NCBI GenBank assembly: GCA_029262315.1
Contig: JAJCZP010000248.1
Span: forward strand, 1-58,637
Reading direction: 5' to 3'
Source: Deltaproteobacteria bacterium
GTDB taxonomy: Bacteria; Desulfobacterota; Binatia; UTPRO1
DNA length: 58,637 nt
Made by a program: the position numbers and the translations under genes. Positions 19,228-50,521 of the stretch are shown here, piece by piece. Position 1 is the stretch's first letter, and every line of letters starts with the position of its first letter. The notes beneath the pieces are model-generated. The model ran no database searches. It saw only the letters and a program-made list of their open reading frames with translations, and was not told the DNA's origin.

Positions 19228-19419
19228 ATGGCACGAATTTGTGAAATTTGCGGCAAGCACCCGTCCACCGGCAACATGGTGAGTCACGCCAACAATCGGA
19301 CTCGACGCCGTTGGAAACCGAATCTGCAACGCGTCCGCGCCAAGATGGATTCGAGCGTACGACGAATTCTCGCGTGCACCCGCTGCATCCGTAGCGGCAA
19401 GATCGTCAAAGCCGCGTAG
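19228..19419 (+). CDS. rpmB: 50S ribosomal protein L28 (zinc-binding form)
   Basis: 63 residues. Starts [10 protein letters not shown], contains [16 protein letters not shown] and ends with a second cysteine pair (CTRC). The two CxxC pairs mark the zinc-binding version of L28. Start ATG at 19228, with GAGGA six bases upstream; a longer ORF from 19192 is rejected. Its 3' end and stop codon lie within a 44-bp direct repeat. Convergent with ridA. Confidence 0.96.
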
Positions 19420-19490
19420 CAAGCGCCCGGCGATCTAGACCCGAAAGATCGTCAAATTCCCGTAGCAAGCGCGCGGCGATCTAGACCCGA
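19401..19490. repeat. 44-bp imperfect tandem repeat across the rpmB/ridA convergent junction
   Basis: Copy 1 is 19401-19444 and copy 2 is 19447-19490. Both begin GATCGTCAAA and end GGCGATCTAGACCCGA, and they differ at only four positions. Copy 1 includes the last codons of rpmB and copy 2 the last codons of ridA. CGATCT and AGATCG within the repeat can form a 6-bp hairpin with a 9-base loop, a weak candidate for a shared transcription end. Confidence 0.85.
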
Positions 19491-44827: not shown

Positions 44828-45646
44828 CTAGACGTCGCCCCGAACAGCCACAATGGACAGGCCTGCCTCATCTGCGGCGACAATGACCTCCTCACGATCG
44901 ATGATTATGCTCCGGTCGGCCTCGAGCGCCAGCACGCGGGCCCCGACTTCGCGCAATATCTCGATCGTGGTCAGCCCGATGGCGGGCACATCGAAGCGGA
45001 GATCCTGGCCCGGCTTGCTCACCTTGACCACGACGACCTCACCATGGCCGAGTTCCGCGCCGCGCCGAATCGCCGCATCGGTGCCCTCGATCCCCTCCAC
45101 CGCCAGGACGGCGCCGCGCTTCACGACGACGCTCTGACCGATGTCCCAGCGCCCCATGCCCTTCGCCACTTCGAGCCCGAAACGCACGTCTTCCGACTCC
45201 CGGGTACTGGGCGCCCGCTTCGTCAGCACGCCTTCTCCAGGAACCAACCCGCCCAGAAAGAGCGTCGATTCGACGATCGTAATGTCATCGCGTTCCAGGT
45301 CGGCAGCTATGCCACGGAGGAGCACGTCGTCCTTCAAACTGCGCGTGCGAGCGATGAACGCGGCGCCACGAAGATCGGGTCGAAAGCCTCCCAGCTGACG
45401 CGGCTTCTTGATCCCCCCCGCCATGACCGCGCGGCGAATTCCCGCCCGCTTGAACACCCGCACGATCTTACCGAGCTCTCCCACGCGCACCCACGTCACC
45501 GCGCGAACCAGATCCTCGATCTCGGCGGGGGTTTCGCCCCGATGGGCCACCGCCACGACGTCGACGCCCTGGCCACGCGCGGCCTCCGCGAAGAGGAGTG
45601 GGAAGCGGCCGTTCCCCGCGATCAGGCCGATCGTTTCAACCGCCAT
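44828..45646 (-). CDS. lpxI: UDP-2,3-diacylglucosamine pyrophosphatase LpxI
   Basis: 272 residues. Makes lipid X from UDP-2,3-diacylglucosamine; LpxI replaces LpxH in many lineages. Start ETIGLIAGNGRFPLLFAEAARGQG, then GELGKIVRVFKRAGI, VMAGGIKKP, the LTKRAPS motif and the C-terminal DLRFDVPAIGLTTIE, all family signatures. ATG at 45646 overlaps the fabZ-lpxA stop by 11 bases. Followed by the 201-bp gap and the two-component genes. Confidence 0.93.
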   Translation of the reverse strand: MAVETIGLIAGNGRFPLLFAEAARGQGVDVVAVAHRGETPAEIEDLVRAVTWVRVGELGKIVRVFKRAGIRRAVMAGGIKKPRQLGGFRPDLRGAAFIARTRSLKDDVLLRGIAADLERDDITIVESTLFLGGLVPGEGVLTKRAPSTRESEDVRFGLEVAKGMGRWDIGQSVVVKRGAVLAVEGIEGTDAAIRRGAELGHGEVVVVKVSKPGQDLRFDVPAIGLTTIEILREVGARVLALEADRSIIIDREEVIVAADEAGLSIVAVRGDV

Positions 45647-46892
45647 CGTCCTGCGCCCCAGCTGGGCTCACCCCGCGCTCCGAGGCATCGAGGAACGTCA
45701 GCAGTCGCGCCACGTCGGGATGCGCGCCGAGCTCGGTCGCACACCGGTCTCGCGCAGCCGCGAAGGCTTCCTTGCGCCTGAAGAGCAGGCGGTAGGCCTT
45801 CTTCAGGGCACGCACGCGCTCCACCTCGAAACCTCGCCGACGCAACCCGATCAGGTTCAGCCCGCGAATGCGGGCGCGATCGCCCGACGCGTTGCAGAAT
45901 GGAGGCACGTCGAGGATCACCATTGAGCCGCCACCGAGAAGTGCGGACTCGCCGACGCGCACGAACTGATGAATCGCGACCAGCCCACCGACGATCACCC
46001 AGTCCTCAAGCATCACGTGCCCAGCGAGTGTCGCACTGTTGGCGAGCACGCAGTGACTCCCGATGAGCGAGTCGTGCCCGACGTGGGCGTAGTTCATCAG
46101 GAGATTGTCGTTGCCGATGCGCGTAACCATCCCCCCGCCCTCGGTGCCGGGGTTGAGCGTCGCGAACTCGCGAACGGTGTTGCGATCTCCGATCTCGAGC
46201 CGACTGTCCTCGCCCGAGTACTTGAGATCCTGCGGCTCGGCCCCGACGCTCGCGAACTGAAAGATCCGGTTCTCTTCGCCAATGGTCGTCCGCCCCACGA
46301 TCACCGCATGCGGTCCGACGGTCGTCCGGGGGCCGATCGTGACGTGCGGGCCGATGACGGCATAGGGACCGACGATCACGCCCGCCCCGAGGACCGCACC
46401 GGACTCGACGACGGCCGTGGGGTGAATCGACGCGGGTCCCACCCCCTCCGAGAGCCAGAAATCCGCTTCCGCCGCGATCTGCTCGCCGACGCGAACTACG
46501 CCACGCAGACGCCAGCGGAAGCCGTCACGTGCTAGCACGTGTACCTGGAGATCGAGCCGATCCCCGGGCACGACCGGAAGCCGAAAGCGCGCGCGATCGA
46601 GGGCCGTCATCCGGAGACCGCACCGCGCAGCGCGCCCCGGCTCTTCGGCCACCAGCAGCGCTCCGACTTGCGTCAGCGCCTCGCACAGGAGCACTCCGGG
46701 CATGAGCGGCACGCCGGGAAAGTGGCCGGCGAAGAACGGCTCGCCGTTGGTCACCGTCTTCGTCGCGACGATCCGCTCGCTCGGCTCGATCCGCTCGACG
46801 CGGTCGACGAGCGGGAGCGGATAACGTCCGGGGAGCAGGTGTGTCAGTACGGTCCCGTCCACGCCGGACATCCCCGTCTCCGCGCGCGCCAT
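45636..46892 (-). CDS. lpxA: FabZ-LpxA fusion: 3-hydroxyacyl-ACP dehydratase plus UDP-GlcNAc acyltransferase
   Basis: 418 residues in one frame. Residues 1-148 are a complete FabZ hot-dog domain: LLPGRYPLPLVDRV, catalytic His57 in GHFPG and Glu71 in LCEALTQ. After a short linker, residues 154-418 are LpxA: left-handed helix hexapeptides from SIHPTAVVESG, DLKYSGEDSRLEIGDRN, and His273 (in YAHVGHD) matching the catalytic His125 of E. coli LpxA. FabZ and LpxA compete for 3-hydroxyacyl-ACP. They are normally separate genes, with lpxD just before fabZ; here lpxD is missing. ATG 46892, with an alternative ATG at 46871 that has better upstream GGAG. Confidence 0.92.
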   Translation of the reverse strand: MARAETGMSGVDGTVLTHLLPGRYPLPLVDRVERIEPSERIVATKTVTNGEPFFAGHFPGVPLMPGVLLCEALTQVGALLVAEEPGRAARCGLRMTALDRARFRLPVVPGDRLDLQVHVLARDGFRWRLRGVVRVGEQIAAEADFWLSEGVGPASIHPTAVVESGAVLGAGVIVGPYAVIGPHVTIGPRTTVGPHAVIVGRTTIGEENRIFQFASVGAEPQDLKYSGEDSRLEIGDRNTVREFATLNPGTEGGGMVTRIGNDNLLMNYAHVGHDSLIGSHCVLANSATLAGHVMLEDWVIVGGLVAIHQFVRVGESALLGGGSMVILDVPPFCNASGDRARIRGLNLIGLRRRGFEVERVRALKKAYRLLFRRKEAFAAARDRCATELGAHPDVARLLTFLDASERGVSPAGAQDDGG

Positions 46893-46900
46893 GCGCCCGG

Positions 46901-47425
46901 TCAGTTCTTGTCGTCGAAGGTTTTGATGACCTCTGCCGTCAGATCGATCGATTCCGAACCGTACAGGACCGAACTCGCAGAGTTCTCGAGAATGACAGTG
47001 TAGTCATCGCGGGAGCCGATCTCTTGAATCACGACGGCGAGCCGCCGCAGGATCTTCCCCGTCAGCTCCGAGTCCTTCTTGCGCAGGTCGGCATCCGAAT
47101 CCTCGAGCTTACGGCGCAAGCCACGCCGCTTGCGCTCGAACTCGTCAGCCAGCGACTGGCGCTGATCTTCCTTGAGGACCAAGCTCTTCTTCTCGAGCTC
47201 GTTCTTGAGCCGATCCAGCTCGTCCTTCTCACTCTTCAAAGACTCCTGGAGCCGCTCGAACTCGACTTTGAACTGTTCCTTCGCTTGCCGACCCGCCTTG
47301 GACTCGTTCAGCGCCCTCTGGAGATCGACGACGCCCAGCTTGAGCTCGGCTGCCGCGGCTACGGCCGTGGAGAGGAACAGGCCGAGCGCGACCGCGACGC
47401 CCACCCGAATGACGACTTGCTTCAT
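46901..47425 (-). CDS. skp: Skp/OmpH-family periplasmic chaperone
   Basis: 174 residues. Signal peptide (VVIRVGVAVALGLFLSTAVAAA), then a short strand (LGVVDLQRALNES) and a long charged coiled coil. This is the jellyfish-like Skp form that carries unfolded outer-membrane proteins. ATG at 47425 has a strong ribosome site (GAGGAG), so the longer ORF to 47452 is rejected. Sits just after bamA, its usual neighbour. The expected next gene, lpxD, is absent. Confidence 0.94.
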   Translation of the reverse strand: MKQVVIRVGVAVALGLFLSTAVAAAAELKLGVVDLQRALNESKAGRQAKEQFKVEFERLQESLKSEKDELDRLKNELEKKSLVLKEDQRQSLADEFERKRRGLRRKLEDSDADLRKKDSELTGKILRRLAVVIQEIGSRDDYTVILENSASSVLYGSESIDLTAEVIKTFDDKN

Positions 47426-47461
47426 GATTGTCTCCTCAAAACCAATTGCCATTCCAGACGC

Positions 47462-49838
47462 CTACAACGGCGCCCCAAACGAGAACATCACCGCGTTCGT
47501 CTTGTCCTCGCTCTTCTTGTTCAACGGAAACCCGAACTCAATGCGTACGGGCCCGAGTGGCGATAGCCAGCGCACCCCGGCGCCGACCGAGTAGCGGAGG
47601 TTGCCGAGATCCCACCCTTCAGAGTCGAGCCACGCATTCCCGGCATCGAAGAACAGGACCCCTTTGAGCCCCAGGGGCTCGACAATAGGAAAGATAAGCT
47701 CGTTGTTGACGATGATCTGCCGACTTCCCCCGATCGGGTCGGTATCCTCGACGCGTCCTTGCGCGTCGCGAATCTCCTCGCGAGGACCAAGCGTGCGCAC
47801 CTGGAACCCTCGAATGGAGTTGATGCCTCCCGGGAAATACCGCTCGAACAGAGGCAGCTCGTCGCCCCCCTGCCCTCGCTTCCCCTGCCCGAAACCGATC
47901 GTCCCTGCAAGAGAATAGACAAACGTGCCAAAACCGGGCGCCTTCAGGATGGGCCAAAAGAAACGGGTGCGCGCATCGAGCTTGAAAAACTCGCTCTGCC
48001 CCCCCAGGCCGGCAAGTTCAAACGAGATCTCCTGACTCGAGCCACGTGTCGGATCGAACCGGCTGTTCAGCGTGTTACGCGTGAGTAGGGGCCGGATACT
48101 GCTGGTGAGGCTTCGCCCCTCCTCGGCCACGATGCTTGGTGGTGATCGCCGGGCGATATCGGTGATGTCGGTTTCTTCGATGCGATACTCAGCCCCGATG
48201 CGCACCTCCTCGAGCGAGTAGCCGAAGATGTCCTCGTAGCCGAGATCAACCAGCGGATAGAGGAAGCGTAGCCCCGCCCCAGTCCCTTCGCGGGTAAAGT
48301 CGTCGAAGTCCAGACGCCAACGAAAGCCGTCCACGGTTGCGATGAGTGGAATGTCGAACAGCCATGGCTCCGTGAAGCTGACGATGAAATTTTGGCGCAC
48401 GGCGCCGAAGTCGGCGTTGATCACGCCGCGCTGGCCGCGGCCGAAAAGGTTGTTCTCGGTGATCCGCGCGTTGAAGAGCAGGCTGTCCGCCGAGCTGAAG
48501 CCAGCGCCCGCCGTCAGCGCCCCCGTCTGCCCCTCCTTCACATCGACCTGCAGATTGAGCTTGCTTTCGTCGGTACCCCGACGGGTCGTGAGATTGACCT
48601 CTTGAAAGAAGCCGAGTCGATTCAGAGCGTCGCGACTCTTCTTGAGATCGGATCCGGAGAATTGCTCCTGCTCGTGGACCTTCAGCTCGCGGCGGATGAC
48701 TTTGTCACGGGTCTTCGTGTTTCCGGTGATGATGATCTTGTCGATCATCACTTCGGGACCCTGATCAATCTGATACGTGACGTCGACCGTCTGGGCCGTT
48801 TGGCTAATCGACGTTTCGGGCTCGATGTTGACGAAGGCGTACCCGACGTCGCCGTACCGATCCGTGATCTTCAGAATGTCCTTGCGCAACCGACTCGATC
48901 GAAACACTTGCCCCGTGCGCAGACCGAGCCCCTCGCGCAGCTCGAGGTCGGCGCGAACATCGCCTGCGAACTGCACCTCGCCCACGACATACACGTCACC
49001 TTCGTCGACCTTGAAGGTGACGTACAAGCCGTCCGCGAGGCGCTCGACGCTCGGCTCGTCGACACGAACGGTGATATAGCCGTTGTCGTAGTAGTAGGCG
49101 GTCAAACGCTCAGTGTCGGTCTTGAGCGCTTCCCCGTGCAGGACTCCCGCGCCGGTGAACCGCGAGAGAATCGACTCCTCGCTGGTGGTAATCACGCCTT
49201 TCAAGCGCCGGTCGCTGAACGCCTCATTCCCCTCGAACTCGATGTCTTGGATACGGACGACCTCGCCCTCGACCACCGCATACCGTACGACGACTTGGTT
49301 CGGCGCCCCGGGAATCGGCTCGACCTCCGGCGTGATGTCGGCGTCGAGATACCCCTTCTCTTCGTAGAGCTTCTTGGCGTCCGCGATGCCGCGTCGTAGC
49401 TTCTGGGTGTCGAGGATGGCCCTGGGGTGGACCTTGAACGCCGCTTCGAGATCCTCGCTCTCAATGCGCTCGTTGCCCTCGATTTCGATCGAGCGAACGA
49501 GGGGGCGCTCGACGACGCGGTACACCAACACGATCCCTGGGTCACCCGCCGGATCGGCACGGCGCTCGACGGCGACGTCGACGAAAAACCCCATCCCGTA
49601 AATACTGCGGACGTCGGTGTCGACGGTCGCGGGGTCGATCTCGCGTCCGGCGCGACTCTCGATATGGATGCGAATCGCCTCCTCGTCGACGCGGGAATTC
49701 CCTTCGACGAGTACGCTTACGATCGGCTGGGCTGCCACCAGGGCCGTCGTGTAGGGCCGTCGTGCCAAGCAGCAACACTCCGAAAAGCGCCACGGCCAGG
49801 GTGCTCCACACCCGCCCCACACCTACCCTCATGATCAT
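47462..49838 (-). CDS. bamA: Outer-membrane assembly factor BamA, frameshifted within the signal peptide
   Basis: Inserts beta-barrel proteins in the outer membrane. About 780 residues. Five POTRA repeats (about residues 30-420) and a C-terminal Omp85 barrel with RGF (FNSIRGFQV-like) and a C-terminal aromatic-containing strand. From ATG 49838 (or 49832) the frame reads [18 protein letters not shown] as a signal peptide. A 13-bp duplication then shifts it, and the BamA frame continues as [11 protein letters not shown]. The uninterrupted ORF begins only with a GTG at 49822 and has no signal peptide ([11 protein letters not shown]). ATG 49838 overlaps the lolD stop (ATGA), supporting it as the intended start. 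Confidence 0.85.
49740..49765. repeat. 13-bp tandem duplication in the bamA signal peptide
   Basis: AGGGCCGTCGTG occurs twice in a row with a 13-base period: 49740-49751 and 49753-49764, each followed by one spacer base (T, C). Thirteen is not a multiple of three, so the second copy shifts the bamA frame. Deleting one copy gives a continuous frame from signal peptide through mature BamA. Confidence 0.92.
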
Positions 49839-50521
49839 ACCGCCTGGCGTGCGGGTTCCGGGTCGATTCGTCCCGTGGAGAGCCGCATGGTCCGGTCCAT
49901 CGCCCCCGCCAGCGCCGCGTTGTGGGTGACGACGACGAGCGTGACGTTCCGCTCCTGGTTCAACTCGATGAGCAACTGCTGGACACCTGCGCCCGTCGCC
50001 GGATCGAGATTGCCGGTCGGCTCATCGGCGAGAATGACCCGCGGTTCCTGGATCAGCGCCCGAGCGACGGCCACGCGCTGCTGCTCGCCTCCCGACAGTT
50101 CGCCCGGCTTGTGCTCCAGCCGCTCGGAGAGGCCGACCCGATCCAGGAGCGCACGCGCACGCTTCTCGGCGGCTTCGCGGGTCGCCCCACCTATCCGGGC
50201 TGGCATCGTCACGTTCTCGATCGCCGAGAAATCGGGCAACAGGTGGTGGAACTGGAAGATGAACCCGACCTCACGGTTGCGGAAGTGTGCCAATTCCCGA
50301 TCGGTCTTGGTCGCCAGATCCTCGCCATCAAACCACACCTCGCCTCGGCTTGGCCGGTCGAGCGTTCCTAGGATGTGCATCAAGGTGCTCTTCCCAACCC
50401 CTGATTCCCCTACAATCGCGATCCGCTCACCTTCGCCGATGTCGAGATCGAGATCGGTCAGAACGCGCACGACTCGCGATCCGTCGACATACTCCTTCGT
50501 GAGGCTGCGCAGCGCGATCAA
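49835..50521 (-). CDS. lolD: Lipoprotein-releasing ABC transporter ATPase LolD
   Basis: 228 residues. ATPase of the LolCDE system that moves lipoproteins out of the inner membrane. Walker [11 protein letters not shown]-loop [12 protein letters not shown], signature [15 protein letters not shown], Walker [11 protein letters not shown] and H-loop VTHNAAL. Starts with TTG at 50521, 6 bp after the lolC stop, with only a weak ribosome site. Its stop overlaps the bamA start (ATGA). Confidence 0.94.

Follow-up and report, generated by a model that had tools for sequence, protein, structure and literature searches.

Local assembly errors are documented in metagenome-assembled genomes, in which overlaps at joins may be duplicated and the copy number of a local repeat may be wrong (Chen et al. 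2020, PMC7111523). Genuine changes of repeat number are also described in living bacteria: PMC4022640, citing Waite (2001, 2003), reports pneumococcal capsule genes that are switched off by a spontaneous short tandem duplication and that revert, and M. tuberculosis promoters undergo phase variation by tandem-repeat number (PMC12817950). The bamA locus analysed here lies in a stretch of DNA of 58,637 nt (the window, meaning the whole of that stretch) and shares features with each of these systems: as in the assembly errors, a short duplicated overlap or wrong repeat number breaks a coding gene on an otherwise sound contig; as in the capsule genes of S. pneumoniae, a tandem duplication in a coding frame means off and loss of a copy can restore the gene; and as in the M. 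tuberculosis promoters, the copy number of a short unit changes in a way that is easily missed or misreported by assembly. The differences are as marked. The capsule genes are dispensable, whereas bamA is essential and its duplication is unclean, one base differing between the units; the M. tuberculosis repeats sit in promoters, tune expression and appear in both states in reads; and, in contrast both to those repeats and to the documented assembly errors, the bamA break is seen in assembled sequence, in which no Ns mark a join.

As assembled, bamA is a frame of 786 aa with a GTG start (47462–49822, on the minus strand like the other features of this locus). Translation and domain searches show five POTRA stretches and one Omp85 stretch, the barrel, all intact; the frame carries no signal peptide, and the first 30 residues from GTG 49822 do not resemble one. 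A separate frame of 98 aa (49542–49838) opens at an ATG with a signal-peptide start, recognized by translation and by scoring of its hydrophobic core, leaves the BamA frame at the repeat described below, and continues as Arg-rich sequence to its end at 49542. The first-pass annotation had described this departure and had stated that removing 13 bases would rejoin the two parts; both points hold, as removal of the 13-base unit fuses the signal-peptide and BamA frames into a single open stretch of 848 codons. The ATG at 49838 overlaps the stop codon of lolD (49835–50521, assigned from sequence and domain match) in an ATGA, an arrangement that fits a coupled start and supports this ATG as the true start of bamA.

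Downstream of bamA lies a skp/ompH-like gene (46901–47452, assigned by domain match), followed by a 418-aa single frame (45636–46892, minus strand) that fuses a FabZ-like dehydratase domain to LpxA; lpxD is absent between the two. The fusion forms a single frame in each of three same-family genomes used for comparison (65–67% identity) and in some more distant genomes (L039, L051), and two frames in others.

The identity of the gene is clear: its product matches the BamA model TIGR03303 at 640 bits, compared with a curated cut-off of 297, over positions 3–739 of 741. The assembled gene does not join a cleavable signal peptide to the mature protein in one frame; it remains a bamA, and the missing leader constitutes the anomaly. 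Differences by codon position between this bamA and those of three same-family genomes are about 0.21/0.14/0.48, a pattern expected of purifying selection on the mature part, which is intact and open throughout. A null of long standing would have decayed.

Comparison with related genomes, a check proposed in the first-pass annotation, placed the leader in frame and found the repeat absent in all five same-family genomes. At 48% identity or above we found 32 loci besides the window's own, two of which (L034 and L005) represent one position in a single genome, leaving 31 relatives; a hydrophobic stretch is present in the BamA frame in every one of these 31 same-class relatives (48–73% identity), if weakly in L010 and L016. 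In the window, the hydrophobic core sits outside the BamA frame (2.96 vs. 0.62). Because the leader test examined 75 codons upstream, it is unreliable below 38% identity, and we drew nothing from such loci. In two of the same-family genomes, G002 (C102/C21) and G004 (C27/C36), the bamA sequence is interrupted at a common point and continues on a second contig, and the two pieces share about 25 residues (375–400).

These comparisons bear on translational rescue, according to which the sequence would be correct and the protein would be made either through a +1 shift of the ribosome where the two frames overlap (49822–49542) or from an internal GTG or TTG start as leaderless BamA. In principle a shift could occur, because the signal-peptide frame remains open for ~70 codons beyond the break. 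However, inspection reveals neither a homopolymer nor a stop-associated shift site near the junction, RNA folding is no better than that of shuffles (z = 0.15), the same-class relatives examined are all in frame, and leaderless BamA would remain cytoplasmic. We consider rescue very unlikely.

The break coincides with two 12-base copies of AGGGCCGTCGTG at 49740–49751 and 49753–49764, spaced by 13 bases; a sequence search finds no third occurrence in the 58,637-nt window. On the gene strand the order is ...CTGCTTGG CACGACGGCCCT A CACGACGGCCCT GGTGGCAGCC..., in which copy 1 (49753–49764) and copy 2 (49740–49751) both read CACGACGGCCCT and are separated by the unmatched A at 49752. The array has a period of 13 bp with 12 positions identical, the 13th base differing between the units. 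The 13-bp tandem duplication originally described is thus accurate as to its two copies and its period, and inexact because of the single A between them. Omission of this A gives a perfect, in-frame 12-bp tandem pair encoding TTAL twice, and the array can also be read, on its letters, as such a pair plus one extra base. By a first-order Markov simulation, a near-complete tandem pair with a period of 10–40 should occur 0.16 times per window, and one is observed; chance does not explain well an array that is sited inside the signal peptide and at the frame break.

Several routes could lead to this structure. It may have arisen in two steps, either by duplication of 12 bp in frame and gain of one base or by duplication of 13 bp and a substitution; or it may have arisen in one step, for example by the joining of overlapping pieces end to end with one wrong base; the sequence by itself cannot choose between the two-step and one-step origins. 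A further route is excision of a mobile element that left a 12-bp target duplication and one leftover base. The 12-bp direct copies with their 1-bp spacer fit the shape of such a scar, but no element ends remain, and the essentiality of bamA poses the same problem here as for the other readings in which the break is real. Excision in bacteria, moreover, tends to restore a single copy or to leave a longer residue, which also counts against a scar. We regard this origin as highly improbable.

The structure of the array also weighs on the proposal of a reversible slipped-strand switch, in which bamA would be turned on and off by loss and gain of a 13-bp unit. Loss of one unit does restore the frame. 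But none of the 13-bp duplications of the one-copy string, all of which we tested, regenerates the observed string, so simple slippage could delete a copy but could not toggle. In addition, the array has two copies only, the repeat is neither a conserved nor a variable site in the five same-family genomes, from which it is absent, no same-class relative among those examined has a disrupted leader, and bamA is essential. A search of the literature on bamA, phase variation and tandem repeats returned nothing bearing on such a case, as judged by title and abstract. A reversible switch at this site is very unlikely. Were the break real, its mechanism would be one already known, and the target alone would be new.

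The assembly as a whole (5.9 Mb in 298 contigs, 99.96% complete) contains a single bamA. The second intact copy that the first-pass annotation had advised looking for is not present in it; the remaining two Omp85 matches, both weak, lack a match to the BamA model. A one-copy version of the site is found neither on the other contigs of the assembly nor in viral contigs.

It is possible, although unlikely, that a real frame-broken bamA allele was carried by some of the sampled cells (for example, cells that were non-growing or that held another copy) and was captured by the assembler. Short tandem duplications arise spontaneously, and the array is improbable by chance, both of which agree with a mixed population. 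Set against this, a null allele of an essential gene should not reach the majority sequence, the assembly offers neither an intact second bamA nor a one-copy variant, and the unmatched base requires at least two simple mutational steps. A more specific form, a subpopulation in which the duplication-disrupted bamA reverts one-way by slippage and which would thereby pass through a transient outer-membrane-assembly-off state, is in our judgment very improbable.

Our search for comparable lesions covered both the window and the genome. Alignment of 34.7 kb of the window to the proteins of relatives revealed no genuine frame break; the bamA leader is too divergent to align in this comparison, and the only flag, an alternative-frame match over lolD, was rejected. 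A codon-usage frame-switch scan, applied to 0.95 Mb of this genome's coding sequence, detected 104 of the 166 13-bp duplications that had been planted in it (63%) and yielded no other convincing internal frame break. By eye, its six flags look like junctions between genes, segments at contig edges or tails of biased composition, none of them with a tandem repeat; with zero flags accepted, breaks would number at most about 5 per Mb of coding sequence at the 95% upper limit (3/(0.95 × 0.63)). The scan did not flag bamA itself, the leader of which is too short. N gaps are absent from the assembly sample examined. The bamA lesion stands alone, in a gene and a genome that are otherwise intact and constrained.

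The genome also contains perfect tandem pairs with periods of 10–27, among them periods that are not a multiple of three; pairs with periods of the latter kind and runs of at least 14 number 9 in 1.07 Mb of this genome vs. 0 in 0.44 Mb of the related G005. We rejected a genome-wide excess of frame-breaking tandem duplications: the pairs inspected are mostly intergenic, at gene edges or in frames already open, and a few are ambiguous. Perfect or near-perfect pairs of 22–26 bp, most of them outside obvious genes, occur at L143:6764–6815, L187:7279–7326, L193:4292–4338, L165:7610–7653 and L169:2812–2853. That at L143:6764–6815 is a perfect 26-bp tandem duplication over the start codon of a FAD-dependent oxidase-like gene (MSAPRVAIVGAGVAG...), in which copy 2 gives an intact start. 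Within the window, a 46-bp tandem pair (19399–19490, plus strand) with copies 91% alike repeats the last codons and the stop of an apparent rpmB (ribosomal protein L28); its divergence suggests an old, real duplication.

We infer that the frame break probably reflects a local error in assembly or consensus, the bamA beneath it being functional and in frame. Almost certainly, the BamA that the organism produces is an ordinary one whose signal peptide is in frame. The error could have taken either of two forms: two overlapping pieces may have been joined end to end, which would have doubled a 12-bp overlap with one wrong base between the copies; or a genuine in-frame 12-bp pair (TTAL twice) may have received a single overcalled base. 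Several lines of evidence point to an error: the single bamA in a 99.96% complete genome, its intact and constrained mature part, and the in-frame leaders of relatives; the overlap of the ATG with the lolD stop, the unclean 12+1+12 structure, and the lack of other convincing breaks; and the consideration that errors hit genes regardless of their function, whereas a real bamA null would be removed by selection. De Bruijn assemblers, on the other hand, seldom create such a duplication away from a join, which counts against an error, as do two observations: the rest of the assembly is clean, with no N gaps in the sample and no other breaks, so such errors are rare here; and the assembly elsewhere holds no one-copy version. 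That errors of this type are documented in metagenome-assembled genomes lends the explanation further support (PMC7111523). Between an error and a minority allele, its main rival, our choice is made by inference. Among the three options initially offered for the duplication, an error has the most support, a mixed population is a possibility, and a reversible switch is contradicted by the sequence and by relatives whose leaders are in frame.

The case is mainly one of caution: a lone frame break in an essential gene on a metagenome-derived contig should be read first as a local sequence error. Should reads show the broken sequence to be genuine and frequent, this lineage would have an essential envelope assembly factor that can be dispensed with or switched, a result that would surprise specialists.
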